Source: Blepharisma japonicum (lineage: Eukaryota; Ciliophora; Heterotrichea; Heterotrichida; Blepharismidae). Taken from it: 64,000 nucleotides of DNA. The stretch's first letter is position 1. Each line of letters starts with the position of its first letter. Shown in pieces: positions 2,095 to 27,022 of this stretch. The position numbers and the translations under genes are program-made. The notes beneath the pieces are model-generated. The model searched no databases and was not told where the DNA came from. It worked only from the letters and a program-made list of their open reading frames with translations. Where the stretch lies: positions 186,001 to 250,000 of the forward strand of contig CATKHK010000061.1 in the NCBI GenBank assembly GCA_949751835.1, read 5' to 3'.

Positions 2095-3204
2095 TTATAA
2101 TTCTGAGGGATCTTTTAGCCTTTTGCCTTCTTTCCATTCTCCTTCTTTCTTTTCTCCTCGGGCAGAAGCTTGATAAGTTCCTCTGCCATGCTGTTTCCCA
2201 TTAAACCAAGCTCCTTCGTATATTCTTCCGTCTGGCCATTTGAAGACTCCATATCCTTGTTTTTTGTCATCTACATAATCTCCAACATAGCATCTTCCGT
2301 CAGGCCATGTAAACGTACCTTTTCCATTCATTCTATTACTTTTTCATTCTCCTACGTATTTTCTTCCATCATTTCAAGTAAAAGTCCCAACTCCATGCAA
2401 ATTATTATCTTGAAATTCTCCTTCATATACATTTCCATCTGCACAATAAAACTTGCCTTTCCCATGCTTTTTTCCATGCAAATAGCTGCCTTCATATTTA
2501 GCTCCGTCAGGCCAAGTTTCTACTCCAACCCCATGCTGTTTATCTTCTTCCCAATTTCCAGCATACTGGGCTCCATCAATATGAGTATAAGTTCCATATC
2601 CATGAGCTTTATCATTAAGTCATGATCCTTCGTACACGTCTCCATCACCATGAATCAGCCTTCCTTGTCCATTTGTCATATCATTTTTCCAATACCCTTC
2701 ATAGATCGACCCATCCTTAAGCAACTGCTGTCCTTTTCCATGCCTCTCATTCCTCTCATTCCATTCTCCTATATAAATTTCTCCATTTTCTAGCAAAATT
2801 GGGCCTCTCTTGGCAACTTTAGTGTTATCTTGAGGGTCGAAATCATATCTATATGGTCCAAATTTGTGAATTGCAGCCATAGTGGCTGAATTAGAATAAT
2901 CAGGAATTTCTCCTTGGATTTCTTGAAGAGTTTCTCGTTTAAGGTTTTTGGTGATACTTGTGGGATGTTCAGCAACTAGGGATTTTATGTAGTTTCTGGA
3001 AAGATAGCCACGGAAAGCAGCTTGAGCTTTGACTGGAAAGGAAGGATCTGGCAGAGTTATATTTAAAGTTGTAAACTGTGTAGGTTGATTTTCAGCTGAA
3101 ACTTTTTCTGGAGCTTTTTTTATTAAAATTGATTCTTCGTTCATTATTCCAATTTCTTGGCTTGCGGTAGTATGAGTATTAAGGCATGAGCATGATGAAC
3201 CCAT
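2095..3204 (-). CDS. MORN-repeat protein with an IQ motif and acylated N-terminus
   Basis: This 369-residue protein is read through TGA codons within the MORN region as Trp. It begins MGSSCSC, a good N-myristoylation site (Gly2, Ser6) with adjacent cysteines suited to palmitoylation, so membrane attachment is likely. Residues about 65-80 ([16 protein letters not shown]) resemble an IQ calmodulin-binding motif. From about residue 135 to the end there are about ten MORN units of the type YEGxW...GxGxxxxxDG. MORN proteins scaffold membranes and cytoskeleton in protists, for example at basal bodies and cortex. The C-terminal repeat is degenerate. A specific orthologue cannot be named. Confidence 0.85.
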
Positions 3205-3625
3205 TTAATTTTAATTATTAATAATGGTTTATTAATTACGATATTTGGATATGATATTTAACTTATGGATGAAGCTTCTTATTTACTGAATATTATAAAA
3301 AATGATCTAAATTTATTGTTATATATTTTCCTAAATAAAAGCATAAAAATAATTTGTTTAAATCATGGTACTTAGTTATTTTCAAAATCATTTCTTATAA
3401 GAAATTAATTTTAAAGAGAAAATTATAATTTTCTGCTCCAAAATCTTAGTTCGCTTTCATCTTACAATTTATAATATTTTCTTAACCAATCTTCATCTGA
3501 AAAGTATATTTCAAGCATTTAAAATTCAAATATCAATATATCAAGCATTCAAAGCTTATAAGAAAATTAATATTAACAATAAATTAAAATAAAGTCTAAA
3601 TTCTCCTAAAGAAATTCTTATTCAA
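3205..3625. other. Non-coding AT-rich spacer
   Basis: About 420 bp between the start of the MORN gene and the end of the bL36 gene. It is very AT-rich with stops in all frames and no RNA gene that I can recognise. It must hold the promoter of the MORN gene and the 3' end of the bL36 transcript. Confidence 0.6.
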
Positions 3626-3916
3626 CTAAAATAAATACTTTTGCCTTAAGAAGTTGAAATAAAAGTTGTTCATAAATGCCATCTGGATTCCGAAAATTCC
3701 GTGAAGATGGTATTGAAAAGCCAAGTCATTGTTCTGAAATGTGCCATTAAATGTGCTGTCAAATGTGCCATTAAATGTGCTATCAAATGTGCCAAACGCT
3801 CTGCCTTGTCTTTGCTTATGTCTTGGATTAGACTCACACCTTACAAACAGCCTTTTGCCTCTTCTCACAAAATAGCATTTCTCGCATCTCTTTTTTAGCG
3901 ACCCTACAAGCTTCAT
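3626..3916 (-). CDS. Mitochondrial large-subunit ribosomal protein bL36 with C-terminal extension
   Basis: The first 38 residues are a complete bL36: the zinc-ribbon ligands are C11, C14, C27 and H33, followed by the diagnostic HKQRQG. bL36 belongs to bacterial-type ribosomes, so in this eukaryote it should serve the mitoribosome, where it sits near the GTPase-associated region of 23S-like rRNA. Bacterial bL36 stops here, but this protein continues for 58 residues, beginning with a tandem GTFDSTFN repeat and ending in an aromatic-rich segment. There is no space for an N-terminal presequence before the ribosomal domain, and the upstream frame is closed by TAA after five codons. Import information may lie in the extension or in an unseen 5' exon. 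Confidence 0.85.
3737..3793. repeat. 24-bp tandem repeat (12-bp half units) in the bL36 extension
   Basis: Two 24-bp copies differing at one base (3737-3760, 3761-3784) are followed by a partial third. Each copy is two related 12-mers beginning AAATGTGC. On the coding minus strand the repeat specifies the GTFDSTFN units of the bL36 extension. As the length is a multiple of three, copy-number change would keep the frame. Confidence 0.85.
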
Positions 3917-3983
3917 ATTTGATGTAAATTATATAATAGTCCAATATTAATCTAGCTTTCACATAATTTTTACAAATAAAATA

Positions 3984-6161
3984 ATGAAGATTAAGGTAAA
4001 ATTTCTCAACAATTTATCGAAAAGGAATATTTTAGAGCTTGAGTTTAACCCTGATAGTTCTGTATCCCAAGCTAAAAAGACAATTGCAAGCTTGCTTGGT
4101 GTCCCAAGCAAAACGATAAGGTTGTTGACATATCGATGTGGGCTTCAAGTTTTAATGAGCGATTCATGGCCGCTTAGATTTTTTATTTCAGATGATTTTT
4201 CAACTATAAAAGTAGACAAATTCAAATTTGCAATTGAAAATACTCCACGAAAGTTAAGAAGAGCTTCCACTTATATGGATACTTTAGGGCGTGGAAATTA
4301 TTTCCCCACTAGCAGAGAGTATGGGCCTTTTGATAAAGTTATTGACGAGTGCATATTGGGTAGTTTAACAGATTTACAGAAAATTGTTGAAATTTATGAA
4401 AATGAAGTTCCTGATGATGAGGATATTTTGAACCAAACCCAAGGATGCTTGTGGAGTCCTTTACATTATGCATGCTATTATGGGCATAGCAATATAGTCG
4501 AATATTTAGTGAGTAGGAACGTAAACGCGAACAAAGTAACGATAGATGAATGGACGCCATTGCAACTTTGTTGCTATCAAGGGAATATTGATGCTGTAGC
4601 TGAGCTGCTAAAACATCCGAATCTTCAACTAAATAAAATGACAAAATTTCGAGGCACAGGACTTCATCTTGCATGCGAAAGAGGCTTTATCGATATCGTA
4701 AAAATGCTTCTCGACAAAAGCGCCTGCATGACTTTAGAAGACCCAAAAGGCAAAACCCCAATTGAGGTCTCAACAGAAGTCGAAATTTTATCAATAATCC
4801 CTGTATACCTCGGCCAAGAACAGCTGAAAAAATACACACAAATTTCAGACTCCCTCACCTTTTTTTGTGGAGAAGTCTGGATGACTGGCTCTTTATTTAT
4901 TCATGACAAATCAGTTTTCCTATATATGGATCCTGAAAAAGGTACAATAGATAGGCATCAAAATAAAGAAAATTACCTAGATGGAGTAGCTCCAGAGTCG
5001 ACACTCTTATTAACTGATATCCAAGATATAAGGCTTTCAGGTGGAAATTCTTTTGTTATTGAAACCTCCAAAGCAAGCTACAAATTTTACACAAAATATG
5101 TAGATTTAACTAAGGAATGGGTCAATAGAATCAAGCAAAGCGTTAATTATTGCTTAATCACCAAACCAATAGAAAAAACCAAAAAAACCTTTACAGAAGC
5201 TACAATAAACGAAATCACAGAAGACGAAACAGTTTCCACCACAGTCGATGCTACAAATCCTGTAGAAACAGATGAAAAGGAAGTGGTTAATTTTAATAGT
5301 TTTTCTATATTAGAAGAAATAGGTAGCGGGTCATTTGGAATAGTGTATAAAGTTCAAAAAAACAACACAGATGAAATATATGCTATGAAATCTCTATCTA
5401 AAGCTACATTACAAAAAGCAAAGCAGCTGAAATATGCTATCAGTGAGTGCAAGATAATGAAGTTGCTAAAGCACCCATTTATAGTGACGCTGCATTATGC
5501 ATTTCAAACAAGCAAGTTTTTGTATTTAATTCTTGAACTGTGCCCTTATGGAGACCTTTTAGGTCAAATTGAGTCTAAAGGATATTTAAGAGAAAATGAT
5601 GCCAAATTTTATTTAGCTGAAATTATATTGGCATTAGAATATCTACATTCGCTGGATATTATATATAGAGATTTGAAGCCAGCAAATATCCTTATAGACC
5701 AAGGAGGGCATGCGAAACTTGCTGATTTTGGCTTAGCCAAAGAAAAAGTTGACAAGAATAACCCTGCGATGACTATGGCAGGCTCTCCAGCTTATTTGCC
5801 TCCTGAAATTGTTTCAAAAAAAGGAGCAAGTAAAGCTTCAGATATCTATGGAATTGGCCCGCTTCTATACGAGCTTCTCACAGGAACCCCTCCTTATTAC
5901 TCAACAGACATTGATGTTTTGTTTCAAAACATAAAGCAAGGTCGTTTATCATTCCCTCCTAACACGAGTATCAGCGCAAACGCAAAAGACCTCATCAACC
6001 TAGTTATGAACCGAGACCCTTTGAAGCGTCCACAGATCTCTCAAATAAAGCGACATCCCTTTTTCCGTAAACTCGACTGGGAAGCCTTGTTGGCCAAGCG
6101 CATTCGTTCCCCGAAGCTTGGCGGCTCGACAGATTCCTTATTTTTATGTGATGATAATTAA
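3984..6161 (+). CDS. Ankyrin-repeat / PH-domain AGC-family protein kinase
   Basis: A 725-residue Ser/Thr kinase. Residues 1-80 look like a ubiquitin-like or RA-type fold. Ankyrin repeats occupy about 150-270 (WSPLHYACYYGHSNIVEYL, then WTPLQLCCYQG). A PH-like domain follows at about 290-395 (GEVWMTGSLFIHDK... ending in a Trp-containing helix). The kinase domain runs from about 438 to 692 with GSGSFG, AMKSL, YRDLKPAN (about 562), DFG and GSPAYLPPE. The YRD form of the catalytic loop and the short C-tail point to the AGC group; no hydrophobic FxxF motif is seen at the end. All catalytic residues are present. Every Trp is TGG, unlike most neighbours. Lipid or protein binding by the PH and ankyrin parts presumably localises the kinase. 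It converges on uS5 with a 16 bp gap. Confidence 0.88.
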   Translation: MKIKVKFLNNLSKRNILELEFNPDSSVSQAKKTIASLLGVPSKTIRLLTYRCGLQVLMSDSWPLRFFISDDFSTIKVDKFKFAIENTPRKLRRASTYMDTLGRGNYFPTSREYGPFDKVIDECILGSLTDLQKIVEIYENEVPDDEDILNQTQGCLWSPLHYACYYGHSNIVEYLVSRNVNANKVTIDEWTPLQLCCYQGNIDAVAELLKHPNLQLNKMTKFRGTGLHLACERGFIDIVKMLLDKSACMTLEDPKGKTPIEVSTEVEILSIIPVYLGQEQLKKYTQISDSLTFFCGEVWMTGSLFIHDKSVFLYMDPEKGTIDRHQNKENYLDGVAPESTLLLTDIQDIRLSGGNSFVIETSKASYKFYTKYVDLTKEWVNRIKQSVNYCLITKPIEKTKKTFTEATINEITEDETVSTTVDATNPVETDEKEVVNFNSFSILEEIGSGSFGIVYKVQKNNTDEIYAMKSLSKATLQKAKQLKYAISECKIMKLLKHPFIVTLHYAFQTSKFLYLILELCPYGDLLGQIESKGYLRENDAKFYLAEIILALEYLHSLDIIYRDLKPANILIDQGGHAKLADFGLAKEKVDKNNPAMTMAGSPAYLPPEIVSKKGASKASDIYGIGPLLYELLTGTPPYYSTDIDVLFQNIKQGRLSFPPNTSISANAKDLINLVMNRDPLKRPQISQIKRHPFFRKLDWEALLAKRIRSPKLGGSTDSLFLCDDN

Positions 6162-6177
6162 GAAGAATTTCTTAGTC

Positions 6178-6975
6178 TTAAACTGTTAAAGTCTTCTCAG
6201 CACCTTGGCTTCTTAAAAAGTCCTGATGCTCGTCAAATGGAGTCTTCAAGAAGTAAGTTGGCTTCCACTGGTCTGGAGTTAAGAACTCAAATGTCTTAGA
6301 AAGTGCGTCATAAGTGGCTCTTACAAAGTTATAGGTTGACCTCGTCTTTCCAGCCGTCGAGGTATATACATCGCCAACTCCAGCTAAGTTCAATATCTTC
6401 TTAGCCACTGGTGGAGCCACAATGCCAGTTCCTCTAGGTGCTGGGACAAGTCTCATCCTGACGCTTCCACATTTTCCTGTCACCTTCATTGCAATTGTGT
6501 GAGGGTTTCCGATTTTGTTTCCCCAATAACCTCTTCTGACTGGCACAATGTTGAGCTTGGCAAGCTGGGCAGCTCCTTTGATGGCAGTTGGAGCTTCCTT
6601 AGCGACTTTCATGCCAATTCCGATGTGTCCGTCTAAGTCACCGACGATCACACAAGCTTGGAATCTGGTTCTTTGTCCTGCTTGGGTCTGCTTTTGGACT
6701 GGCTTGATTCTCATAAGCTCTTCTTTCAGCTTGTCGCCTAAGAAGTGCTCCACGATTTCAGTCTCCTTGATAGGAATGGAGTGGAGGAAAATCTCTTCGA
6801 TTTTCTTGAGCTTTCCTGCCTTTACAAGTCTTCCTAATTTGGTGAGAGGAGTCCAGGCTTCCTTTTCTTTAGGAGCGTCGCCTCTGCGTGGTGGGCGGTC
6901 GCCTTGCCTTCTTTCTGGCTTGCCTCTGCCAAATCCTCTGCCTGTGCCTGTCTTAGGTGCTTGCTTTTGTTCCAT
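6178..6975 (-). CDS. RPS2: 40S ribosomal protein uS5 (RPS2)
   Basis: This 265-residue protein has the eukaryotic uS5 layout: a Gly/Arg-rich N-terminal tail (residues 1-35), the double-stranded-RNA-binding-like S5 N domain ([19 protein letters not shown] onward) and the S5 C domain ([20 protein letters not shown], then [19 protein letters not shown]). Length and order match the family. It forms part of the 40S mRNA entry channel and contributes to decoding fidelity. All Trp codons are TGG and codon choice is noticeably less AT-biased than in neighbours, as expected for a highly expressed gene. The start is the only ATG before the tail. Confidence 0.97.
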
Positions 6976-7015
6976 TTTTGGCCACTAAATTATAAGTTTA
7001 ATCTAAGAGTATTAC

Positions 7016-8482
7016 TTAAAGCTTCCAAGCTTGTCTAAGCATGGCTTCAAAGTAGTCATCGTTATCAATGCTAGCGCTAACATCTTCATAATATCTTGCG
7101 AACTCTTGTAGGGTCACAATACCGTCTGGTTTTTCTGTATCCCACATAGTGATGAACTCTCTGAAGATTTCTGCGTCAGTTTTCTTGCCAGAAACTACGT
7201 CTGGGTGTCTGCTGGCGTCATAAGTTCTGGCAATATCGTCTAATGTGACTTGGCCGTCTCCATTTTTATCAAGTTTTTCATAAGCTAAAGCGACAAGTCT
7301 GAGTCTTCGGTTGTTCATAGGGCCTTTGATAGTTGTTAAAAATTCGTCGAAATTAACCACGCCGTCTTTGTTACGGTCAAAACAGGAAACTAAGGTTGCA
7401 ATTTCGGAGTCGTTGAGAATTATGCCGTAGTTTATGAGGCCCCATTTAAAGTCTTCTGGGTCTAGGAGTCTGTTTCCGTTCGCGTCCATGTTTTTGAAGA
7501 TTTTTGAAAGGCCTCTGATGCCGTAGCCGCCTCTTTCGAGTAACACTTGTCTGATTCTAGAGAGAAGCTGCTCTGGGCCAATTGAAGTGCCTTCTGCTGG
7601 TAAATTTTCTTGAGCTGCGTTTGGATCGTTTGAGGTGACAAACATCCAGACATTTTCATCTCCTTGATGTCTACTAGGGATATCAACTGTTAATTTTCCA
7701 ACCTTTTCTGATGACAGTTGTTGCGCCTTTTTATGATTTAAAAATGAATGGGAGCACACTTCAAATTCACTCCCATAATCATTTTTATAGTTTATGTTGT
7801 CAGCAGCTAGCCACTGGCCAGTCAAATTGTGTTTTATCACAACAGCTTGGTTTGCTCCTACAGGATGACCATTCATTTCAAAGCGGACTTTAGGGTCAGA
7901 ATGTTCAATCACCCATATAGTGTTTGCATTTTTACGAGGAGCCATACTGACTTCTTGGTGACGCGAAAATCTTGCAAATCTCATTGGAGAAACAACTAAG
8001 GAATGGAGATAAAGAGGGTATTGAGAAAGATAAGGGTGAACAGTCAGGGTAAATTGTTGGCCATAATGAAGGTAATCTCCAGGAAAACCATCATCTTCGC
8101 TGAATCGTTGTAAAATGAACACTGAACGAGCTACTGGAGATCTGTACTGAGGCGATGCTGTAACTGCAACTCCTTCATCACCATCAATCTTGTCTCCCAT
8201 ATCAGTTACTAAGAACCCATTCGTTTTCTTATTAAGCAGCATAATCCTATCTCCGAAATGCAGCTTCCCATCGCCACTAAAAGAATGCCCAACTGTTGTT
8301 AGACTTTTCTGGAGTTTTTCCTGAATTTGGTGCACTACTAGTTGTCCACCCTCTCTTCTTTTCAAAAAATCCTTAAACCTTATTTGGTCAAGATCTACAT
8401 CTTCACGCCAATTTCCAATAAGAACTTTTGGATTATATCTTTGGCCGCCTTGCTTCTGCTGGGTTGTAAACAACATATTCAT
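7016..8482 (-). CDS. CFAP161: CFAP161-calcyphosin fusion, axonemal microtubule inner protein
   Basis: A 488-residue protein in two parts. Residues 1 to about 290 match CFAP161, a MIR-domain microtubule inner protein of ciliary doublets: YNPKVLIGNWREDVDLDQ at the start, then SGDGKLHFGDRIMLLNK. Residues about 300-488 are calcyphosin-like with four EF hands. Loops 1-3 (near 331, 367 and 406: DANGNRLLDPED, DRNKDGVVNFDE, DKNGDGQVTLDD) look able to bind calcium; loop 4 (DTEKPDGIVTLQE) carries an insertion. Animal CFAP161 lacks the EF-hand part, so here a calcium sensor is fused to a luminal doublet protein. All seven Trp are TGG. It starts 32 bp from the divergent PP2C gene. Confidence 0.85.
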   Translation of the reverse strand: MNMLFTTQQKQGGQRYNPKVLIGNWREDVDLDQIRFKDFLKRREGGQLVVHQIQEKLQKSLTTVGHSFSGDGKLHFGDRIMLLNKKTNGFLVTDMGDKIDGDEGVAVTASPQYRSPVARSVFILQRFSEDDGFPGDYLHYGQQFTLTVHPYLSQYPLYLHSLVVSPMRFARFSRHQEVSMAPRKNANTIWVIEHSDPKVRFEMNGHPVGANQAVVIKHNLTGQWLAADNINYKNDYGSEFEVCSHSFLNHKKAQQLSSEKVGKLTVDIPSRHQGDENVWMFVTSNDPNAAQENLPAEGTSIGPEQLLSRIRQVLLERGGYGIRGLSKIFKNMDANGNRLLDPEDFKWGLINYGIILNDSEIATLVSCFDRNKDGVVNFDEFLTTIKGPMNNRRLRLVALAYEKLDKNGDGQVTLDDIARTYDASRHPDVVSGKKTDAEIFREFITMWDTEKPDGIVTLQEFARYYEDVSASIDNDDYFEAMLRQAWKL

Positions 8483-8514
8483 TTGTTCAAATTATTTATG
8501 ATGAAACTTTATAA

Positions 8515-9979
8515 ATGGAAAACAAGCCTATTGAAACTCGATCCAGATCGAGTGGGGTTTTACCATCTCGATCAACAATTTTGAGGGAGTTTAATATGTT
8601 TAATAAAGCTAGACTTGAAGAAAGGAAAAAAAATGTAATAAATACAAGTGCATTGAATAAATCTGTGGTTTTTAAAAGGAAAGAATTCTATACACCTAAT
8701 ATATCTCCTAGGCTTTTAAATAAAACGCAAATTGGCATAAGAAATGTGGAAACCCCTAATAGGCTAAATCAATCACAAAACGTAAATATTCCAATAAAGG
8801 AAACTGTTTTAAGGGGAAATAACGACCCTCACTCATTTGCAAGAGCAATTCATCTTGAGCCTAAACCAACAAATAATTCGCATTTATCGTTACAAAATAA
8901 ACAAAGAAAAGAAAAAATTAAAATTTATGAAGAAAGTTCTGTAATCGAGCTCCCCTCTGTCAATAAGTCTAAAAGAAAAGCTACAAAAGAGGTAGTTGTT
9001 TCAAGGAATCAGAGTCCTTTATCTAGTTCAATACCCGAGATAAGGCAAGTTAATATAGCATCAAAAGCTCCTATTAGATGTGCATATTTAACGAAAACAG
9101 GGATTTCTGCAGGAAAAACCAAAGCTAATAACCAAGATGCATTTATTTTGAAGTATAAATTTGGACAAGTTTATAATCAAATTTTATTAGGAGTTTTAGA
9201 TGGTCATGGTATAGAAGGACATCTTGTTTCAAATTTCATTAAAAGGGTCTTGCCTATTGAAATAGAAAGCAATAGTCCTCCAGAAGGTAAAATATTATAT
9301 AGTGGTCACAAATAGCCATATTCCAACAGAAGAGCTGCATTCCAAGCTAAAAGAAAGCATGAATAAAGGCTTTTTAGCTGCAAATGTTGATTTAAGCCAA
9401 AATAAAACTATAGATTCCAAATTTTCTGGGACCACTGTAAATTTAGTTTTAATCAGAGGGAAATTTTGTATATGTGCAAATGCTGGAGACTCTCGAGCAA
9501 TTATAGGAAGATATGAAAATAATCGATGAACGCCAATTCCATTATCAAATGACCATAAACCAGAAGTGGAAAGCGAAAGAATTAGAATTGAGAAATGTGG
9601 AGGAAGGGTAGAGCCTTATAGCGAAATTACTGGACAATTTTTAGGCCCTCAAAGAGTATGATTAAAAAATTCACAAATTCCTGGACTTGCTATGACTAGG
9701 TCTTTAGGGGATTTTATAGCTTCACAGGTGGGGGTAATTCCAGATCCTGAAATAAAAATCCATGAAATAACGAAAAGTGATAAATTTATAGTGCTTGCGA
9801 CTGATGGAGTATGAGAATTTGTATCAAATGAAGAGTGTGTCAATTTAGTAGGAAGGTTTTATAGAGAAGGAATTCCAGAATCCGCTTGCAATGCATTGAT
9901 GGAAAGAGCATTGAATTATTGGAAAAATATTGATCAAGTTGTAGATGATATTACTATAATTGTAGCGTATATAAAATAA
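8515..9979 (+). CDS. PP2C-family protein phosphatase (PPM)
   Basis: This 482-residue product needs removal of a 16-nt intron (9287-9302) and reading of three TGA codons as Trp. Residues 1-185 are a low-complexity basic leader without a recognised domain. The catalytic domain has the PPM signatures in order: NNQDAF, LDGHG (Asp229), SGTTVNLVL, ANAGDSRAIIG, LAMTRSLGD, ATDGVWEF (Asp425, with Trp encoded by TGA at 9812-9814) and DDITIIV. All metal-coordinating aspartates are present, so an active Mg/Mn-dependent Ser/Thr phosphatase is expected. Its substrate is unknown. It is transcribed divergently from the CFAP161-like gene; the shared promoter region is only 32 bp. Confidence 0.93.
9287..9302 (+). 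other. 16-nt spliceosomal intron in the PP2C gene
   Basis: GTAAAATATTATATAG. Removing it restores the frame between the two PP2C halves and gives GTG (Val) across the junction. Without removal the frame ends at TAG eight codons later. Confidence 0.9.
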
Positions 9980-10408
9980 AACTTTAATTTATATGCATTT
10001 TCTTGAATTTTCCTTTGAGAAAACTTGTAATAAAAGATAAGTCATAATGCTTTAAAAATAGATAAATTAACGGTTTCATTTTTGAAAAAAAGCTAACTTA
10101 TTTTGCATTGTTTTGAGTTAAAGAAATAAAATCCAAGTTTTCCTGAATATTTTTATTAACCTGAACCAAAAATTTCGAAGCATTCTATCGGTGATGTCAA
10201 TTGTTCTGCACTAAAATTTCATCTGATAATGACTGTAAATTTTCATAAATATAGCAATATATATTATTTTTCACAATTTTTATTATTTTATCATTGTTTT
10301 TATAATACTAAGATTTCATTATTCAGTTGCCTTTCTCTTAAACCTTCTAAAAAAATCATCCATTTTCTTTTCCAGTTCATATATAATAACAATAATAACT
10401 CCCAAATC
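9980..10408. other. AT-rich spacer
   Basis: About 430 bp between the PP2C stop and the phosphatase start. An open plus frame extends upstream of the chosen phosphatase start (from 10229), but it is low-complexity Tyr/Phe/Asn-rich and unlike the family, so I treat it as leader. Two short minus-strand stretches look faintly coding but are in different frames and resolve into no gene. Confidence 0.5.
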
Positions 10409-10882
10409 ATGATTTGCATTGATAAAATCGATGACGGTATTTATCTAGGAAATGAAGCAGCGGCTTCTCGTTTAGATTTACTCAAAAACAATGGAATCTC
10501 TCACATAATTGTGGCAGGGATTGAGCTGGAACCTCATTTTCCAATCCATTTTAGCTACAAGAAACTTGAAGTACTGGATCGTAGCGAAGAAAAAATCGAT
10601 AAATACTTCGAAGAATGCAATGAATTTATCGATGAAGCAATTAACAGCAATAGCCGAGTTTTTATTCACTGCTATCAAGGGGTTTCCAGAAGCTGTTCGA
10701 TAGCAGCTGCTTATTTAATATCAAAAAAGAAATTCACCCCTAGGCTTGCTCTAGATTATATTAAAAGCAAACATTTTGAGTGCAACCCAAATAAAGGGTT
10801 TTGTGAACAATTGGAAGGCTATGGGAAGAGAATTAATATGAAGCGGATACAGAAGAATTCTACTTGTTGCCAAGTATTTTAA
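10409..10882 (+). CDS. Dual-specificity phosphatase with a C-terminal CaaX-like motif
   Basis: A 157-residue atypical dual-specificity phosphatase. The start at 10409 is chosen because the family begins here (IDDGIYLGN is the usual first strand of small DUSPs); the longer open frame upstream is low complexity. The signature HCYQGVSRS contains nucleophile Cys88, preceded by VFIH and followed by the conserved AAYLI helix. The general-acid Asp is probably in EVLDRSEE. The protein ends CCQVF, a CaaX-type prenylation motif with an adjacent cysteine, so membrane anchoring is likely, as in PRL phosphatases. MAP-kinase or other phosphoprotein substrates are inference. Confidence 0.9.
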   Translation: MICIDKIDDGIYLGNEAAASRLDLLKNNGISHIIVAGIELEPHFPIHFSYKKLEVLDRSEEKIDKYFEECNEFIDEAINSNSRVFIHCYQGVSRSCSIAAAYLISKKKFTPRLALDYIKSKHFECNPNKGFCEQLEGYGKRINMKRIQKNSTCCQVF

Positions 10883-11331
10883 GCTAAAATTTTGTAAATT
10901 TCATTAAGAAATGCTCTAATGATTACTATTAATAACTGTTAGCTAATACAAATGGAGAAATCTATAAGCTAAAATAATTAAAATGAGGTTACATGCTAAA
11001 GTTTGCAAGCAAATTCTGATCATTTCTATTTATGCTAATAATCTTATGGATGTACTTAATAAATGATATTTTTTAACATTATAAATAAATTTATTAATAT
11101 AATAAAAAAATACTTTTATATTTTAATATTAATTAAGAATTTCACATATTTTCAATCCCTCCCCACTTCATTTTAACTCCATTTTTAAGACGAACTAATT
11201 CATTATCCTTAATTTTTTAAAGAATTCATTTTATTAAATTTTAACTAATATACATATATTTTATTACATAAATTCTATTATTCAATATAATTTCTCTTCC
11301 CACGATTATTGAATATTAGTATAGCAAAAAT
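10883..11331. other. Non-coding AT-rich spacer
   Basis: About 450 bp with stops in all frames. I see no RNA gene or conserved element. It presumably contains the promoter of the downstream gene. Confidence 0.6.
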
Positions 11332-12810
11332 ATGGAATCTGAAAGCGAGACTGTCATATCTGAAAGTAAGCTCTATTCAGACGAAATTCCTCGATTTCTT
11401 CACGAATACCTCTCTCTTGCCTTGCAATTTATCGTAAAAGGTGAATTTCAAAGTGCATTAGAAGCTCTTTCTCACAGTCAAGAACTTCTTGACGCAGTTA
11501 TTTCACAAAATGCTTATATAGACTCTGATTTTATTACTGCAACATTTCATAATACTGCACTTTGCTATCAAAGGTATTTGAAATTTAGACTAGGAGAGCT
11601 TCAAGAATGTGCCTCTGCTCTTTTTGCATGTATAACAACCTCTCAGCGTATAATAACTCAAAAATATCAGCCAAACCCTTCTCCTTTATCTATTGATGAA
11701 AGAATTATTAAGCTTCAATACATCAGTAAACTGCATTTACAACTATGTGCAGTTTTTTCCCAATTGGGGCAGCATGAAGATGCTTTGCAGCATGCAAAAG
11801 AAGGATTATCAAAAATTCAAGAAAACGTTCATTTAAATTTAAAAGTTTGCCAAGATCATTTAGAAAGGCATGAAAAATTGACTCATTTAAGCGCGTTAAG
11901 AAAAAGAGTGCAAAATCAGCAGCAGTATAAGTTATTTGAAAGTCCTCACTATAAAAGTTATCATAAGACTGTGATTAAAGCCATACCGATTTTGAAGTTT
12001 TTAGATGAAGATGCTAATTTCAATAATAAAAAGATGAAATTTAGTTTAAAGCAAGATGAGGAAGAATATGAGTGGATTAATGAATATAATATTGGAGATA
12101 TTATGGCAATTGAACCGTTAGGAATCGAAGAACTAAAAGGATTAGCAAACGTGTCACCTGCACTTAGCAGGGACATGCTACTTGAAAAAATATGCTTGAT
12201 GATAGCTGCAAATTTTTGTGTGGCGACCGAAATTAGGTTTTTAATTGAAAATGGAGCAAATGAGTATTATCTACTAGAATCCAAAGTTTGGCTTCAAAAA
12301 TCATTAAAATTTGGGGAAAATCTCCTTCCTGAAGAGTGCCCTTTATTATCTTATATTAGGATGTTTTTTCATAAATACTATAAAGATGAAGTCAGAAAGC
12401 CTGTTGATAAATCTGCAAAATTTGCGAATGATAATTTTCTATTCGCAAAAGCAATGCTGCGCTCTAAAACTCCACAACCTGTCGTAAATCACAGTGTCCG
12501 AAAAACTTATAAACAAAATTTATTTAAAAACTCTACCAATTTAAATAAAAAAGAAAAACTGTCCAACTCTGCACACAAACCCAAACATAAAAAAAATAAA
12601 AAATCTAATTCATACTTAGAAGATGACTTGCAGTCGTCAAATAGAAATGTTTCTAAAGAAGAGAAAAAACCTCTGGAAGTTTCTTATCCTGTGCCGTATC
12701 ATCAATTACACGAAAAACTCGAAAAAATTCAAAGTCAAGAATCAGAACCAAGCTCGTCTGAAGATTATCCTGTTCATTTTGCCAATAAATCAAAAAACAC
12801 AAAATTTTAA
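11332..12810 (+). CDS. TPR-like helical protein with a basic low-complexity tail
   Basis: This 492-residue protein has no TGA codons. Residues 20-180 are helical with TPR-like spacing (FIVKGEFQSALEALSHSQEL; LQLCAVFSQLGQHEDALQHAKEGL is the clearest unit). The middle holds a conserved-looking segment around LKGLANVSPALSRDMLLEKICLMIAANFC, and the last 110 residues are Lys/Ser/Asn-rich and probably disordered. A similar arrangement occurs in the TPR-IQ gene at 48307. Proteins of this type are abundant in ciliates and their roles are mostly unknown; a scaffolding role is a guess. It ends 15 bp from the convergent allantoinase-like gene. Confidence 0.75.
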   Translation: MESESETVISESKLYSDEIPRFLHEYLSLALQFIVKGEFQSALEALSHSQELLDAVISQNAYIDSDFITATFHNTALCYQRYLKFRLGELQECASALFACITTSQRIITQKYQPNPSPLSIDERIIKLQYISKLHLQLCAVFSQLGQHEDALQHAKEGLSKIQENVHLNLKVCQDHLERHEKLTHLSALRKRVQNQQQYKLFESPHYKSYHKTVIKAIPILKFLDEDANFNNKKMKFSLKQDEEEYEWINEYNIGDIMAIEPLGIEELKGLANVSPALSRDMLLEKICLMIAANFCVATEIRFLIENGANEYYLLESKVWLQKSLKFGENLLPEECPLLSYIRMFFHKYYKDEVRKPVDKSAKFANDNFLFAKAMLRSKTPQPVVNHSVRKTYKQNLFKNSTNLNKKEKLSNSAHKPKHKKNKKSNSYLEDDLQSSNRNVSKEEKKPLEVSYPVPYHQLHEKLEKIQSQESEPSSSEDYPVHFANKSKNTKF

Positions 12811-12825
12811 TATCTATATTTAATA

Positions 12826-14541
12826 TTAATAATTTTTTCTCCTTAATACCTCTCCTACTGCACAGATTACTCCAGAATTATCATTAAACGCTAATTTCCC
12901 TCTAACATAGGTTCTCATGATTTTCCCATAAAGTTCTTCTCCCATCAATGGTGACATTTCTGAAGAGATATTTTCATTAGGTTTTACAATAAATTTCTGA
13001 TAAGGATCCCATATAATCAAATCTGCATCTTTGCCAGCTGAAATTGATCCTTTACTCTTCAGCCCCAAAATTTCAGCAGGGGTTTGAGAAAGTCACTGTG
13101 ATAATAACACCAAAAATGATTTCTCATTATCTTCTCTGACATCTGCTTTTAGCTTCGTTCAAATTGCTTGAAGCAAATACCCCATACTTGAAACACCATT
13201 AACTGCCCTTTTAAAGTCCCCTAAAAATTTCTGAGGAGGGGCTACTGGTTGATGGTAGCTTGATATACAGTCAATATATCTTAATTTTAAAGAATCTCAC
13301 AGAAGCTTATAATTACCGCCATCTCTAATAGGAGGGTTTACCTTATAGCGTGTATCTCCTGGCTTTACATCAATATTTGAAAAAAATAAATAAGGTAGCG
13401 AAGTCTCACACGTCAAATTTGGATAAGAATCTCTAAAATTTCTTATCAGTTCTATAGCTTTATTAGAGCAAACATTGGTAAAATGGATTTTTGCCTTGAT
13501 ATTTAAGCTTAACACTTTTTCAACAGCTTCAATTTCTCATGACTCTGGAAATGTTTTGGCATAATTTTTATATGATTCTGAACTTATACTGCCTCTTTTC
13601 ATAAACGGCAAATCTTGTGGAGGAATCGGCTTATTTTTATTTCCTAAAGTGCATAATATAGAATGCCTTTTTCCTTTAGCTTTATTAGGACAAGTTTTTA
13701 TTTCTTCAGGAAAATTCTGATTTTGAATGACGCTGAAAACGTTAGGTAAAGATCCACGCTTTTTTTCAGGGCTTCTATTCGGCAATATTTCAAATGGTGA
13801 AATTACAACAGGAATTTTAAACGAAGTTCTACGGATTCCACCAATATCTTTAGTTGTAGGAGTACTGTCAGGCGAATAATCAAATGGTTCAATTTCATCA
13901 TCGCTGCTTGAGCTTGATTCTTCATTTTCTGGAAATTCCTCAATTTTGAATTCTGAAGGCATCAGGTCTCTTTCCTCAGGAACTACCATACGAAAAGGGG
14001 TATTTTCAAGCAGCTCTTTATGACTTGTGAACTCTGGATGCACAAAAATTGGCAAATTTCCATTAGTTTCTCTGAGAACTTCTTCAACTTTTGTTAAAAT
14101 TTGAGATTCTGGACCTTGTGGCACTAAAAATGCTTTTAACCCAAAAATGTTACTATTAAGGAGGCTTGCAATTTCTCCGATCTTATCGTCTGAAATTTGG
14201 AGCAAAGGAGCAATATCAGTATAGATTTCGCCGTCAAGCCTGTCTGTTGTAGAAATGCATGTAACTCCTCCACATAATCCAGCCTTTGTTGTAACTGATG
14301 ATCCTTCGTATCCAAAGGTGACATTTAAATCTATCAGTCCGGGAGATATAAAAAGATCGCCTAGATCCTCAACTAAATATTGTTCCATAAGAAAATCATA
14401 GGTATCTTTGTCATAAGGGAGTATTTGGGAAATTATACCGTCTTCTACCAAAATAAACCCATGAAGGGGCTGACGATAACTGAATGAAATTTACCCTTCA
14501 CATATGATATTTTTGCTTATAAAAGCTAGTTTGAAACTCAT
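12826..14541 (-). CDS. Allantoinase-like amidohydrolase with degenerate metal site (probable pseudoenzyme)
   Basis: This 566-residue product results from splicing a 15-nt intron (14480-14494) and reading internal TGA codons as Trp. The fold follows allantoinase/dihydroorotase: HGFILVEDGIISQIL, SPGLID, the carboxylated-Lys strand GLKAFLVPQG (Lys131), VHPEF (His163), NPPIRD, then GDFKRAVNGVSS and SAGKDADLIIWDP. Catalytic positions are lost. The HxH metal pair after PGLID is NVT (Asn68, Thr70), the metal-binding His of the IVHLSS strand is Asn351, and the DHSP aspartate is Tyr424 in SSYHQPV. So four of six ligands are changed and hydrolysis of allantoin is unlikely. About 125 Ser/acid-rich residues (near 190-315) are inserted in the barrel. 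By analogy with CRMP/dihydropyrimidinase-like proteins, a structural or regulatory role is more plausible. Confidence 0.87.
14480..14494 (-). other. 15-nt spliceosomal intron in the allantoinase-like gene
   Basis: On the minus strand GTAAATTTCATTCAG. Splicing links an ATG-led 15-codon exon to the β-sandwich start YRQPLHGFILVEDG; otherwise the frame is closed by TAA with no ATG. Confidence 0.88.
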
Positions 14542-15538
14542 CGGTTTTATTATTATAGTCCCGATCCGAAAACTTCACTGAATGGATACATATCTGGAGT
14601 ATCCCAAAAGGGCTTTGGGAAATTAAGGAAAAGGAATTTCAATAGCATTAAGATTCCTATAATTGAAATTTGAAAAGATATACAAATATATAAAATTTAT
14701 TTTGTTTGTTATTATTACAGAAAGTCTTTATGAAATTGCTAATAATTCCACAAGGGTTATTTTTTAGTTTTTCTGTTGATATGCATGCCATATCTGAACC
14801 TAAGTTCACATCTTAAGAAAAATGCTTACATTCAGTAATAGAATAACCTCTAAACTTCTAGCTTCTTCAGTTTTATGTATCCACTTATTGTCAGTTGAGA
14901 AGGTCTTCGGAGTAAATTTATAGAATGGCTATTTTATAATTTTTATTTGTAAAGATTCACATTTTCTTTAGAACATATAAAAGTGCGTGAGACTATATAA
15001 TTTGATGCTTGATTTTTATTAGGTTTGCTGTCAAGCTTCGTTTTGCATTTAAAAATCTAAAAAGCCGATAGAAAGAAGTAATCAATTTAATTCTTTATGA
15101 ATGAATAATAGCTAAGTTTTGGCTAATCTTTTATAGTATACTTCGAAAATTCTATTAATTCCTATTAATTTTATAAGATAAAATAATAATAATTTCCTCA
15201 TCTGAAGATTTTTTAAAATAAAGATGCGAAATTTTGGATTTTTTAAGAATGTCATTTTTGGACTAAAAATTTAAAATAAATCCTTTAAATTAGCCTTTAT
15301 GTCTTAGAAATTAAATAAGAATAGTACACAAATTCAATTATCTAATTGGTTTACTGACGAATTAGAATTTCGAAAATTTTCATTTAATTATCCAATTTAC
15401 TCTCTGGCGAATCTGCAATCTTACGAAAGATCTAAAGAAAATTTATTTAAATGTGCTGATTATTCCAAAATTTTATCCTAACAGCTATTAATTTTCTTCC
15501 CTTTTTAAAATGATAACTTCTTTCAATATTAAATTTGC
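14542..15538. other. Large intergenic region without a recognisable gene
   Basis: About 1 kb, the longest gap in the window. It is AT-rich with frequent TAA/TAG. One open plus-strand stretch (about 15308-15481, 57 codons) has coding-like composition (QLSNWFTDELEF) but no ATG, no homology I recognise and no splice route into the next gene. It may be the remnant of a lost gene. Confidence 0.5.
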
Positions 15539-16123
15539 ATGTGGAATTCAGTAGCCTGCAATACAGTTTATGGCAAATTTCTACGAGAAAAAGAAGCTCA
15601 AAGATATCATCGTTCTCTCAGCAGTGTTCGATCAGTAATGAACACACATAAAGCTCCCAAAGAAATGCGGCATCTCCAATACAAAGCAAAAAGAATTCGC
15701 ATGATTCAAGATCGTAACGAAGAAATTGAGCATCAAAATCAGCTTCTTCTGAACAAAATGTATACTATTGACAGCAAGCCTTCTTCTTTAAATCCAAATA
15801 ATTGCGCTCCTAGGTCTCCTTCAATAGCAAATCTCAATTCAAAAGTTCGCAGTAGAAATTTAAGTCGAATTTATGATGAAAACAAAGTAAAATCCAATTA
15901 GAAATTTTTAGAAAGACTTCAAAGTGCTGAAAGTGCATACTCTATTGAAAGATGAGATGAAGAAGAAAGAAGAAGAAACTATTTAAAAGAAAATATAAGC
16001 AGAAATTCAGGTAGATGCTTCAGGAAAAATAAAGTTATACAGGATTGGGAATCACAAGATCTGATATCAAAAATATTGTCGAGGAGGCAAAGCAGACCGA
16101 TAACTGCTGAGCAAGCATTATAA
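15539..16123 (+). CDS. CFAP97 (hemingway/KIAA1430)-like protein
   Basis: A 189-residue protein spliced through a 15-nt intron (15887-15901), with one TGA read as Trp in ERWDEEE. Residues about 15-75 match the short CFAP97 domain: RYHRSLSSVRSVMNTHKAPK, then LQYKAKRIRMIQDRNEEIE and NQLLLNKMYTI, the last being the family hallmark (IERENRxLLxKM). CFAP97/hemingway proteins are needed for motile cilia and sperm flagella. The C-terminal half is basic, Ser/Arg-rich and unlike known members. Small size resembles CFAP97D1. It ends 22 bp from the PLK gene. Confidence 0.75.
15887..15901 (+). other. 15-nt spliceosomal intron in the CFAP97-like gene
   Basis: GTAAAATCCAATTAG, in phase. It contains the only in-frame TAG before the coding sequence resumes with KFLERLQSAESAYSIER. 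Confidence 0.85.
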
Positions 16124-16145
16124 ATAATAAATTATAAAAGAATCA

Positions 16146-17882
16146 TTAGTCATCAATAGGCGATTCTTCCTTATTTGGGTCTAGCATATGGGTAAGTATA
16201 TCTTTTGTGTATTTTAATCTTTTAATCATTTCTTGATTGTTTCTATCTTGAGCTGTGGCAAGAGGATAAGTTGATCTTTCTCCTAGTTTGTTGGTATAGG
16301 TAACAACTCTAGTTTCACTAAACAGAATTATTTCAGTGTGATCTTTGAAATTTGCTTGTACAATTTTATTAGAAAATTTAAACATAATTGCGTATCTCGT
16401 TTTCATTCATTTTTTTACATATACATGATTCATCGGGGCATTTTCATCTTCCAACCCTGCCTCTTGTTTTGCATCTCCTTCCAAACTGCTTATAAAACTC
16501 TGCAATAGTGTGATTTTCTGTTTTAGTTCTTCTGGAAACTCTGTCAAAGTATGCACCACCACGATGCTTTGGTTTTCAGATCCTTTTTCTATATACTCAA
16601 ATCTATTATGAGTAGGTCCTAAAATAATTTTAGTGGCATCATGAAAAATTACCCCAGCTGCCCCATTAGATAGCAAATACCCCAAACCATATTCTGATGA
16701 ATAGTCAACTCATTTTTTTACTCATACTTCAGGACCTGCAATCCCTGTCTCTTGTTCTGGGGCATCTGAAGGCTGTGGAAGCTGTTTGGTTTCTTCACAA
16801 AATTTAGAAATCCTTTCAGTATTTGCAAGTTCTTGTCTATTAACCTTCTCTATTACATTTCTTGAAGCGAAAGAAGGAACAGTCTTATCAAGTTTGTTAG
16901 GAGACTGATATTCATCGTTAAGAGAAGGCGATTTAAATTCACCTAATAATGAAGTACTTGGCGGGCATGCCAAAGTAGACAGAGGCATTAATCTTGGTGC
17001 AGGATTCCCTTGATGGAAAAATTCATGAGCTAATATTTCATCAAGTGAAGGACGTTGTGCAGGGTCACAAACAAGGATTCTTGTAATTAAATTTTTACTA
17101 GCTTCACTGAGAAGGATGCTATCAGGAAATTCATAAGCATTCTTAAGGATTCTTCTATATGTGTTTTTCACATCTGGAGTCTCAAATGGAGGTTTTCCTA
17201 CTAATAAAGTATAAGCAATTACTCCAAATGACCATATATCAACTTCATAAGAATGACCATTTTTACCAGCTAATATTTCTGGGGCTATATAATTAGCTGT
17301 CCCACAAATAGTCCGCTTGCGCTCACCTTTAAATCCAATTTTAGTTGCTGAGCCAAAATCTCCAATTTTTATTTCCATTTTGTCGGATAAGAATAAGTGT
17401 CCCAATTTCAAATCTCTATGAATCACTTTGTTGTTATGAAGATATTGCAAAGCTGAAATTAATTGAAGTAAGTAGCACTGGACTTCTGGCTCAGTCAGTC
17501 TCTTTCTGCATCTTAAGAACTCATTCATAGTCTTATTTGTACAGATCTCTAATAAAATGTACACATTTTCATTGTCTTCAAAGAAGTTTTCAAACTCTAC
17601 AATATTTGGATGATTAAGGGCTTGATGAATTTTGATTTCTGACATAAGCTTTTGTTTTCCTCGTGGTGTTTTTAGAGAATCTTTGGGGACTATTTTTACT
17701 GCAGATAATTTTAATGTTTCAAGATTGATAAACTCATAGCACCTTGCAAAGCTACCTTTACCAAGGAATCGACCCTTATTATAGCATCTGGTTGCAATGT
17801 CTCCGCTCTCTTTTACAACTTTTTCTTCAATTGTGGTTGCAGATCCTATATCTTCAAGGTTTCTTTTAGGGTTGGCTTCCAT
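16146..17882 (-). CDS. Polo-like kinase (PLK)
   Basis: This 578-residue protein has a kinase domain at about 35-290 and two polo boxes. The kinase has GKGSFARCYE, AVKIVPK, VIHRDLKLGH, GDFGSA and CGTANYIAPE, the last two typical of PLK. The polo-box region opens with WVDYSSEYGLGYLLSNG at Trp391, where the conserved Trp is a TGA codon, and polo box 2 follows (YAIMFKFSNKIVQANFKDHTE). PLKs drive mitotic entry, centriole/basal-body and cytokinesis events by docking to phosphoprimed partners. Oddity: the catalytic-loop Asn (HRDLKxxN), a Mg ligand, is His162 here, which could weaken activity. Length and order otherwise equal PLK1. Confidence 0.93.
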
Positions 17883-20562: not shown

Positions 20563-22503
20563 CTAACATTTGAATCTCATAAGCTCCCATTGATTACTTG
20601 CAATTGTATATTCGAAGACACCCATTAATTGTCCAATAACTACAATTTTTTCTTCATCTAAATATGAACAGCAAGACGTAAAAGCATCACCTTCATCTAT
20701 AGGTGTCCCAGGAACAATTTCATTACTTTCAATATTCCAATGATAAGTATTTTGTGAGTATGCTCCTCTTTCTCGTGCTCCACCTACCATCAAAATATTG
20801 TTCGGTGCTGTTTTGATTAAAGCAACTCCAGACATAGGCTCAGGCAACCTGATTTCTAATTCATTCCACACGCTATTCTCAAATTTTTCAATGCTTGACA
20901 AGAGATCCCATCTTCCAGAATCTTTGTTTGACCCACCTACTACATAAATATTCTGATCAAAAACCACACTTGTCGCATTTTCCCTTTTTCTTTGCATTGG
21001 GGATATTAATTCCCAATTTTCATTATTATAAATTTCAACACTTGCGAGTGCATCTTTTGTTTCAGGGTTTCTTCCTCCTATTACATATACTAAATCACCT
21101 AAAATTGCCATAGAATGCCATGCTCTAGGCACATTCATATCTTGCTGCTTGGTAGAGGCTGAAGATTTCAAATTGATAGAAAATGTATTTTTTGGGTTTT
21201 TTAAGCCTCCTGTTAATAAGACGTTTTCTCCTATAATGACGGCTCTAGAAGAGTATTGAAAACGATGGCAGCTCATAGAAGTTATTTTTCGTGTCAAAAT
21301 GCTGTAAATATTGGCTTTTCCAGGAGTTTGGGCAAGAGAAAACAACGTTGGGCCAGTAAATAAAGACTGGCTACGGGAAGGAGTTCTTGTTGTAAGTCTT
21401 GCATCATTACGAGGAGTTGCAGGAGCTGATTGAGAAGCTGGGTGAGCTGCAGGAGAGCCAGTCATAATTTCAGTTAAAGAAGCTCTCAGCTGTACGAAAT
21501 CTGATCTTCTGTTTTCTGGCACCTGAAGCATTCTATCTAATAGCATTTTGATCCTTTCAGGGTAATTTAGCTTAGAAATGGCTCTTTCCACTTGATTTTG
21601 TAAGGCGTCTGATCCTATTTCCAGGTTGTTCAGCTCAATAGGTTTATTTAAGCTAGCCATGTGGAGGAAGCTTAGACCTAATGAATAAACATCAGATTTG
21701 ATTGGGTTGTGTCTGACATCTCCAGAAACATTTTTGCCTTTGATTATTTCCAAATACGCTTTGAATAGCAATGGGCTGAAATAAATAACGGTTCCAGTAA
21801 CTTGATAAGTCCTAGTGACCAGTGCATGCATCCCTTGTCTAGACTCCCCAAAGTCTCCTATTTTCATTTTCCCATCATTTGCAATAAATAAGTTTCTAGG
21901 CTTCACATCTCCGTGTGACAGATTTTTTTCTTGTAAATATGCAAAAGCATCAATTAGGTCTGTCATGTGGGTCATGAGATCAGTTTCGCTCCAAGGATTA
22001 TTTCTCAATCTTCGATTTTCTATATCTTGCTCCACGTCTCCGTTTTCTGAGAACTCCATTACAATAACATATTTATATCCGTATTGATAAGATTGATCAA
22101 GAAAAGCAGTAATGCATTTGCATATATTGGGATGTTTCATAGAAATCTGCAGCTCTGCTTCTTTTTGTTTCTTTTTGAACTCCCCTTCAGATCGACAAAT
22201 CATGGTTTTGATCGCGACTTTTCCGGCAACATCTTTTATGCGGCCTTCTGATACTTCAGTTGTGCCTTCAGGAGACCGATAAATGTTCCGAGTAAAAATC
22301 AAATTTGATAGAGTCACCTGGGCTGGAGCGCTATCTAACGATTTGTGTGCATCATTGATTGGGGTGAATTCGTGACGATCATGAGGGTTAGCTTCTCTAT
22401 GCTGCTCTATGTGGTCTACACATAATTTGGTATTTTTACATAAGCAGATGTAAAGAGCTTCATTTTTGCATCACTTGGTTTCACAAGAGTTTTTGTTTCC
22501 CAT
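20563..22503 (-). CDS. Protein kinase with N-terminal zinc-binding motif and C-terminal kelch propeller
   Basis: A 646-residue protein. The start is the ATG at 22503, giving MGNKNSC, a classical N-myristoylation site; a TGA at codon 11 is Trp. Residues 7-35 form a small Cys/His cluster (CETKWCKNEALYICLC, CVDHIEQH) resembling a B-box. The kinase domain (about 60-330) has VAIKTM, EAELQISM, LSHGDVKPRN and GDFGES. The Gly-rich loop is unrecognisable and HRD is HGD (near 196), so it is a divergent, RD-minus kinase that keeps the catalytic Asp and Asn. A Ser/Pro/Thr linker leads to kelch repeats from about 408 to the end (VLLTGGLKNP, DLVYVIGGRNPET, NIYVVGGSNKD). Kinase-kelch fusions suggest a membrane-tethered signalling scaffold. 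Confidence 0.85.
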
Positions 22504-24853: not shown

Positions 24854-27022
24854 TTAATTTAAACGATTTAAATATTTTTGTATTGTCTCAATAATTTCTT
24901 CAGAGCTACAAGGCTTAACCAAGCACTCTGCCATTCCACTCTCAAAGCATTTCTCCACGTCTTCGCTTGAACTAAATGCTGAGTATCCAATAATCCATGG
25001 CACTCTCCTCAATGTCCCTTCTCTATGTAGTTGATGAATAAGCTTAGTCGCTTCTCACCCATCTAGCTCTGGCATGCTGCAGTCCATAACAACAACAGAA
25101 TATGGCTTCTCTTTATTATCCATAGCTATCACACATTCTACGGCTTCTTTTCCATTACAAGCTTCATTATATAAAACCCCACTTTTCGCCAGCAGCGATC
25201 CAAGAATAATCCTATTAAAATCATTGTCATCCACAATTAGCACCTTAGGGTATTTATTTTTTGTGTCATTATATGTAAAAAACTGTGCGATTTTTAACAA
25301 CTGTTTTTCTTCTTCGATTGTATAATCAGAATCTTCTTCTTGAAAAGAGGATGGGGTATGATTGGAATCAAACGCATTTATTGTAAAAGAAAATGTGGAG
25401 CCTTTACCAGGCTGTGAAGAAACATCAATGCTTGTCCCTTCAAGTTCTTTTATAATGCGATTTGTTATGTGGAGGCCAAGACCACAACCTTGAGGATTGA
25501 TATTGGGGGTGTTTGAAGTGCTGAATTCTTCGAAGAGTTTTAATAGTTTATCATCAGGAATGCCAATTCCTGTATCTTTTACAACTATTTTCAATTTTTC
25601 TTCAGCTGTCATCAGACAGCATATTTCAATTGAGCCTTTCATGGTAAATTTCAAAGCGTTACTTAATAAGTTTAAGATTGCTTGGCTAAGCCTTAAAGGG
25701 TCTGTATACACTCATTCAGGCAAGTCTGGGTCAAATCTTAAATTTAGCTCTAATCCCTTTTTTTGGGCTTGAAGCTTAATAAGATCGCTTGTACCAGAAA
25801 CGAGTTCTCTTATGCAAAACTTTGACTTTTGGATATTAAATACCCCAGCTAACATTCTAGAATAGTCTAATAAATCATTAACTAAGGAAAGAAGCAGTTT
25901 AGAAGAAACCAGGATCATTTCGATTTTTTTGGTTTGGCATTCGTCAATAATAAGTCTTAATTCTTCCCCTAATTCCTTTGCTAAAAACAATATAGTATTA
26001 ATAGGAGTCCTTAGCTCATGAGACACCGATCTCAATAAAATCGTCTTAATCTTATTTTCTGCATTAGTTTGCTCCAATTGGATAATTTGACTAGCATTTT
26101 TTGCATAAATAATTAATGCTACTTTTTGATTTTCCCACAAAATTTTGGTTGCTTTTCACTCAATATATTTGTCCCTCTCTGTCGAAATCCCTAGCATGAC
26201 TTCATGGTTAAATTCATAATTAAAAAGAAATTGAATATCATCAATTAGCAAATTTGAGCTTGTTAAAGCTGAATATTTTTTATCCTTTGTATATTCTACA
26301 TCTTGAAGTAAAGAAATTACTTCTTCTTTAGAACAAGACAGTAGTCTTAGGATATTTGAATTAAAATATTCAATTTTGTTTTGTCTGGAAATTACTAAAA
26401 TTCCGTCAGGACACGCATTAATTAAAATCCCTAGTCTGCTTTGAATTTTCTCGAATTCCTTCCAATATGCAAACCTTTCTTGAGAAGCCTGCAAACGGAG
26501 GCAAGAAATCAAATTAAAAATGATGAAAATATAGAGAATTGTCATATAAATAAAAAGACTCTCCATATAGTTCAGATTTTCAGGAGTTGATTTTATAGAA
26601 TGTCAAAGCACTATGTGTCTTCCATATATGAGGTTTTTGAGCCAGATCCGTTGAATAATTGACATTTCTAAGTGCTTAACGAGTAAACATGCCAGCATTT
26701 CGAAAAGGATTTTATGCTCTATGCTAAAAAATAAAGAGTTATAGAAAAGAGCTAAACTTATCAGTTCTGCGTATAATAAAGATAAAATTGCCTTATAAAT
26801 AGCCTTTTTATTTTCTAGAAATTTTACTATTAAAATGGTCATTGTCTGAATTCCTATAAAAGGGGCTTGATTCATAAATACTGAAAAAGTTTTCTCAAAA
26901 AGCAAAAAGCTGAGGGACCAGACTAGTAGAATAATACCCATTGAAAGGTATATGTACTTCTTTAAAATTTGAAAAGTCTCATTGACCTCTTCTTCCCACC
27001 AATTATTTTGGAAATCAGTCAT
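24854..27022 (-). CDS. Hybrid sensor histidine kinase with receiver domain
   Basis: A 722-residue membrane protein in one frame across four or more TGA-Trp codons. Residues 1-170 carry about five or six hydrophobic helices without a large extracellular loop, then a PAS-like region (about 180-300; ACPDGILVISRQNKIEYFN). HisKA contains SVSHELRTPIN with His335. The HATPase domain has N (LLSNALKF), G1 (DTGIGIPD) and G2 (GCGLGL) boxes. The receiver has VLIVDDND and phospho-acceptor Asp647 (VVMDCSMPELDG), with the conserved Lys in LVKPCSS. All phosphorelay residues are present. Ciliates use such hybrid kinases, but the stimulus and the downstream transfer protein are unknown and no partner lies nearby. 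Confidence 0.94.

Follow-up and report, generated by a model that had tools for sequence, protein, structure and literature searches.

The stretch of DNA analysed here (below, the window) comprises 64,000 nucleotides of the ciliate Blepharisma japonicum (assembly GCA_949751835.1, contig CATKHK010000061.1, positions 186,001 to 250,000 of the forward strand). On its reverse strand lies a gene, here called pseudo-allantoinase, that an earlier note, made from the sequence, had described as a single recruited allantoinase-like gene with a damaged metal site and an insert in the barrel. The gene actually belongs to a family of 20, every member of which retains the barrel fold, lacks the metal site and carries an insert at one and the same place.

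The frame 14541..12826 on the reverse strand, read with TGA as Trp, is open save for one TAA, which lies inside a 15-nt intron (14494..14480). Introns of this length, one or two near the 5' end, were also found in four of the 19 paralogue models. Both the TGA reading and introns of 15 or 16 bp are described for Blepharisma stoltei in PMC9942806, and the TGA reading for B. japonicum itself in PMC10942620. Three further in-frame 15-nt GT..AG stretches in the open reading frame (ORF), GTCATTCAAAATCAG, GTAGCCCCTCCTCAG and GTGTTATTATCACAG, were rejected as introns and judged, from sequence only, to be coding, because the paralogues have protein-coding sequence across the same places. Hidden introns of this kind were also rejected as the origin of the insert, the candidate stretches leaving it uncovered. 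The ciliate origin of the gene, assumed earlier, is supported.

To describe the metal site, we aligned the cores of all 20 members with 48 cyclic-amidohydrolase references (E. coli AllB and 47 others; 42 bacterial loci from a genome-contig scan, at 21-31% identity, served as references). The window residues N68, T70, K131, H163, N351 and Y424 align to AllB H59, H61, K146, H186, H242 and D315, respectively, which are the six metal ligands. These residue numbers, given in the earlier note, are exact on the spliced protein, and its claim that four of the six ligands are replaced, with the lysine (K131) and the strand-4 histidine (H163) kept, agrees with the AllB alignment; in the alignment with the 48 references, too, the window protein has no canonical His or Asp at these four positions.

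The same four columns (H59, H61, H242, D315) have lost the ligand in all 20 members, the replacing residues being N15/G4/C1 for H59, R11/K4/S2/C2/T1 for H61 and Y5/Q5/H5/A2/S2/N1 for D315. The strand-4 histidine is additionally lost in 15 of the 20. Thus each family member keeps between zero and two of the six ligands, whereas 44 of the 48 references keep five or six (the other four keep 3, 2, 1 and 0). At least 18 members share 44 residues with AllB, among them K146 (n = 18) and S314, H316 and K286 (n = 20 each); the His directly after Y424 in the window protein (H425) is kept in all 20. The strand-8 Asp is the general base of the superfamily. Since canonical amidohydrolase chemistry requires the metals and this Asp, which are absent from all 20 members, we conclude from the sequences that it has very probably been lost, a conclusion with good support.

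The insert is, as described earlier, rich in Ser and acidic residues and interrupts the barrel, but it is longer than the approximately 125 residues claimed: the window protein has 134 residues beyond the AllB length. They are situated after strand 4 and its helix and before the helix preceding strand 5. All 20 members carry an insert at this site, 115-214 residues longer than AllB, and in the window protein disorder is predicted internally, for residues 167-316. P300 (window numbering) is kept in all 20 inserts, and F198-P199 in 16-17 of them. A Pfam search of the inserts yielded no known domain; two weak matches, each in a single member (E 0.018 and 0.048), were regarded as chance hits. In one paralogue (C33, L036) a helix is predicted at residues 301-328 within the otherwise disordered insert, and the motif at this helix, DLDxRIK...NIExLSxAE, is found again in most members of the 15-gene clade.

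R-[K/R]-x-[S/T] sites are over-represented in the inserts. Counting 15 of the 20 inserts, one per close group, we observed 19 sites, whereas shuffles that preserve composition gave 4.4 (none of 1000 reached 19). In the 15 matching cores there was 1 site against 3.5 shuffled, and in the 28 other window ORFs 12 against 10.5. These sequences suggest that the sites may be targets of PKA/AGC-type kinases. Coordinates of the gene and its features are collected in Table 1.

Table 1. Features of the pseudo-allantoinase locus in window coordinates.
Feature	Positions	Strand	Remark
Pseudo-allantoinase coding region	12829..14541	-	566 aa spliced, TGA=Trp
Stop codon of the gene	12826-12828	-	
15-nt intron gtaaatttcattcag	14480..14494	-	contains the sole in-frame TAA
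N68-V-T70, replacing strand-1 metal-binding H-x-H	14317..14325	-	alignment with AllB
K131, kept lysine (AllB K146 column)	14134..14136	-	Lys in 18/20 members, Arg in 2/20
H163, kept strand-4 histidine (AllB H186 column)	14038..14040	-	His in 5/20 members, Asp in 15/20
N351, replacing strand-5 histidine (AllB H242 column)	13474..13476	-	Asn in 18/20, Gly in 1, Ser in 1
Y424, replacing strand-8 catalytic aspartate (AllB D315 column)	13255..13257	-	alignment
Insert, residues 186-317 as cut	13576..13971	-	Ser/acid patch, four [KR][KR]x[S] sites, P300; predicted disordered
SSSSSDDE, Ser/acid run in insert, residues 204-211	13894..13917	-	
RRTS in insert, residues 232-235	13822..13833	-	common to C91a and C91b
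KRGSLP in insert, residues 256-261	13744..13761	-	
KRHS in insert, residues 286-289	13660..13671	-	
KRGSIS in insert, residues 310-315	13582..13599	-	
Short relic matching 5' flank of C91b	15175..15225	.	53 columns, 85%

The 19 further genes were found by protein search of the genome (45.2 Mb, 224 contigs), and a gene model was built for each. Family copies are spread over 19 contigs. The nearest paralogue, C91a, is 81% identical to the window protein, followed by its tandem neighbour C91b (53%) and by the other 17 (35-43% over the matched part). Chance can be excluded as the source of the pattern of lost ligands and insert, because the 19 paralogues repeat it. The window region 2095-17882 and C91 75600-100100 (L096, L029, L097) are duplicated, syntenic segments: a MORN gene (2095-3204), the pseudo-allantoinase, a small ORF (15533-16091) and a polo kinase (16146-17882) all have counterparts on C91. 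The tandem second pseudo-allantoinase, C91b, is present on C91 and not in the window. As a match to its 5' flank persists in the window at the relic listed in Table 1, the tandem partner of the window copy was probably lost after the duplication. Beyond this genome, a viral-contig scan with the family alignment (8 pattern matches) and a genome-contig scan with one protein (65 pattern matches) revealed no relative.

All 20 frames are intact under the genome's TGA=Trp code. In the five close pairs the barrel has an omega of 0.036-0.080 and the insert one of 0.093-0.129, and in two distant pairs the barrel values are 0.069 and 0.111 (Nei-Gojobori, NG86; synonymous distances are saturated and the values rough). 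Thus, the family genes are maintained proteins under purifying selection, and in close paralogue pairs the insert sequence is constrained as well.

The structure prediction shows the cyclic amidohydrolase fold, that is, a TIM barrel with a flanking N/C-terminal beta domain. The predicted local distance difference test score (pLDDT) falls below 50 at model residues 55-70, 80-87 and 412-430, the strand ends lining the pocket. The earlier proposal of an allantoinase-type scaffold holds: the profile that matches the window protein best is that of allantoinase, TIGR03178 (E 8e-50, 169.9 bits), and the best fold match is allantoinase, with dihydroorotase among the related folds. A profile of the family gave 184 bits for allantoinase and 97 for the best dihydroorotase.

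Descent from allantoinase itself, implied in the earlier note, is favoured by these profile and fold scores, but the 33-row tree (the 20 family sequences plus 13 of the 48 references, no eukaryotic allantoinases being among the references) places the family firmly with none of allantoinase, dihydropyrimidinase and dihydroorotase. The family forms one side of a 100/100 branch. The best tree unites it with three other bacterial rows on a branch (88/94) that is not starred. Grouping with five allantoinase-like rows gave a p-AU (approximately unbiased test) of 0.086; grouping with two dihydropyrimidinases was not rejected (p-AU 0.325). Within the family, the 15 members in which Asp replaces the strand-4 His group together (99/98), and therefore the fifth ligand loss needs one change. 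The four common losses are most simply placed before the family expansion, because they are present in every sub-clade.

The genome was also searched with profiles (six frames, unspliced, best candidates alone scored). The allantoinase, D-hydantoinase and dihydroorotase models matched only the 20 family genes, none above cut-off; in particular, the curated TIGR03178 cut-off of 357.85 was reached by none of the 20, the window protein scoring 169.9. Hence this search found no intact allantoinase elsewhere in the genome, a possibility that the earlier note had raised. PF01979 has one extra gene, on C113, which is presumably imidazolonepropionase-like, judging by its sequence. The upstream urate-pathway genes were not found in the genome either: uricase (control positive in 2 of 14 genomes), HIU hydrolase (4 of 14) and OHCU decarboxylase (4 of 14). 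For allantoicase there was no match, but here the control was silent everywhere and the result is uninformative. PF02729, the N-domain of aspartate/ornithine carbamoyltransferases, was not found, its control being positive in all 14 genomes.

Taken as a whole, the family is, in our opinion, rather likely to consist of expanded pseudoenzymes acting as a phospho-regulated scaffold or adaptor on an allantoinase-type barrel, by analogy with the animal CRMPs. We favour this reading because a conserved barrel is combined with a flexible arm bearing kinase-type sites by the dead pocket, because there are many paralogues, and because CRMPs offer a parallel. Cyclic amidohydrolases form tetramers; by analogy the barrel would be a stable, probably oligomeric core. 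The long flexible loop after strand 4, leaving beside the dead pocket, would act as a docking and regulatory arm; its R-[K/R]-x-[S/T] sites would be phosphorylated by a basophilic (PKA/AGC-type) kinase, which would switch partner binding, and mixed oligomers of the 20 paralogues could form a combinatorial scaffold. On analogy with CRMPs only, the partners would most likely be cytoskeletal or cortical. The fuller version is tentative and, to our mind, doubtful: an independently evolved CRMP-like system in which phospho-switched hetero-oligomers of dead allantoinase-type subunits would scaffold the cortex or cytoskeleton of the giant cell, having arisen after loss of the parent purine-degradation pathway.

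Several observations weigh against the scaffold reading. In addition to the roughness of the omega values noted above, the insert of the C42/C75 pair has omega 0.716, and for C91a/C91b the insert value is not computable. The motif excess is not confined to the inserts, as 19 low-hydrophobicity chunks of other window ORFs have 5 sites against 2.5 shuffled, a weak excess (46 of 500 shuffles as high). At least one strict R-[K/R]-x-[S/T] site is present in 17 of the 20 members and none in the other three; the C42 insert has zero [KR][KR]x[S/T] sites; and the window insert contains a single strict site (RRTS), its other three being Lys-first (KRGS, KRHS, KRGS). Finally, residual or altered activity is conceivable, given the Lys in 18 of 20 members and the equivalent of His163 in 5 of 20.

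This last point leads to the first alternative, a repurposed enzyme catalysing some other reaction in a remodelled, perhaps metal-free pocket formed by the Lys, the strand-4 His or Asp and the strand-8 S-x-H. It would account for the AllB residues shared by 18 or more of the 20 members, including K146, S314, H316 and K286, and for the strong purifying selection on the barrel, but the strand-8 Asp is absent in all 20 and the ligand-replacing columns vary freely (D315, H61), whereas one would expect a new active site to be conserved; we regard such an enzyme as unlikely. We would give similarly little credence to a ligand sensor, in which a small molecule, e.g. a purine or pyrimidine catabolite, would bind in the dead pocket and the signal would pass on through the loop: at least 19 of 20 members retain the PPIR, S-x-H and K segments of the second shell near the former pocket, but pocket residues vary among members and the pocket-lining strand ends of the window protein are poorly modelled (pLDDT below 50).

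The remaining alternatives were rejected. Loss of active-site residues could by itself signal decay, but a pseudogene, contaminant or assembly artefact is very improbable given 20 genes with intact frames in the code of this genome, some with 15-nt introns, barrel omega of 0.04-0.08 in the five close pairs, copies on 19 contigs and a syntenic duplicate of the window copy. An active allantoinase, for all that the best profile and the best fold match are of this type, is hardly credible with four of six ligands replaced, 169.9 bits against the cut-off of 357.85 and the profile search of the unspliced genome finding neither uricase nor HIU hydrolase nor OHCU decarboxylase. Bacterial PyrC' is a non-catalytic dihydroorotase-like partner of aspartate transcarbamoylase, and dihydroorotase is among the related folds, but a role of this kind is scarcely conceivable here without a PF02729 match (unless a divergent carbamoyltransferase was missed) and with a family profile nearer to allantoinase (184 bits) than to the best dihydroorotase (97 bits).

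Other genes of the window include a Piezo channel on the reverse strand, represented by two ORFs (55605-57269, cap and anchor domains; 57303-62447, the Piezo transmembrane unit) that probably belong to a single gene interrupted by a frame break or an intron. The same strand carries a hybrid histidine kinase with HisKA, HATPase and receiver domains (24854-27022), a protein kinase domain fused to kelch repeats (20563-22503) and two adjoining related proteins of about 1400 aa each without a Pfam match (32186-36478 and 36605-40711), both of which are matched by one C91 ORF at 28-38% identity. On the forward strand, ankyrin repeats are joined to a protein kinase domain (3984-6161).

In the open-licence PMC literature we found no description of such a family and no paper on Blepharisma or Stentor with allantoinase or dihydropyrimidinase; the matches there for ciliates and allantoinase were, by title and abstract, off-topic for such a family. 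Genes of this kind will receive the labels allantoinase, dihydropyrimidinase or dihydroorotase in an organism seemingly without those activities, a warning for annotation. If the scaffold reading is true, the family would be a second, separate case of a cyclic-amidohydrolase barrel stripped of metals and re-used, different from the CRMPs in its 20 paralogues and in having a loop instead of a tail as the regulatory arm. The comparison would open the question of what makes this fold prone to re-use as a scaffold.

Compared with known systems, the family differs from allantoinase (E. coli AllB, PDB 3e74/8hfd; Bacillus halodurans, PDB 3hm7) in keeping 0-2 of the six ligands, in the long insert after strand 4, in a score under the cut-off and in urate-pathway genes not being found. 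From dihydropyrimidinase/D-hydantoinase it differs by its lack of the metal site and by family-profile scores of at most 110 bits for these enzymes against 184 for allantoinase. With the animal pseudo-dihydropyrimidinases CRMP/DPYSL it shares loss of the metal site on a cyclic amidohydrolase barrel, but by profile it is of the allantoinase type (184 vs 105 bits). The analogy drawn in the earlier note is apt: according to PMC4051505, two of the six metal residues are likewise left in CRMP-4, CRMPs assemble into homo- and heterotetramers, and the disordered tail, which is phosphorylated, governs partner binding. The bridging Lys, Leu in CRMP-4, is kept in 18 of the 20 family members, and there are five human CRMPs against the 20 members here. 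The CRMP disordered region is a C-terminal tail, whereas that of the family is an internal loop, the window protein ending soon after the beta domain.
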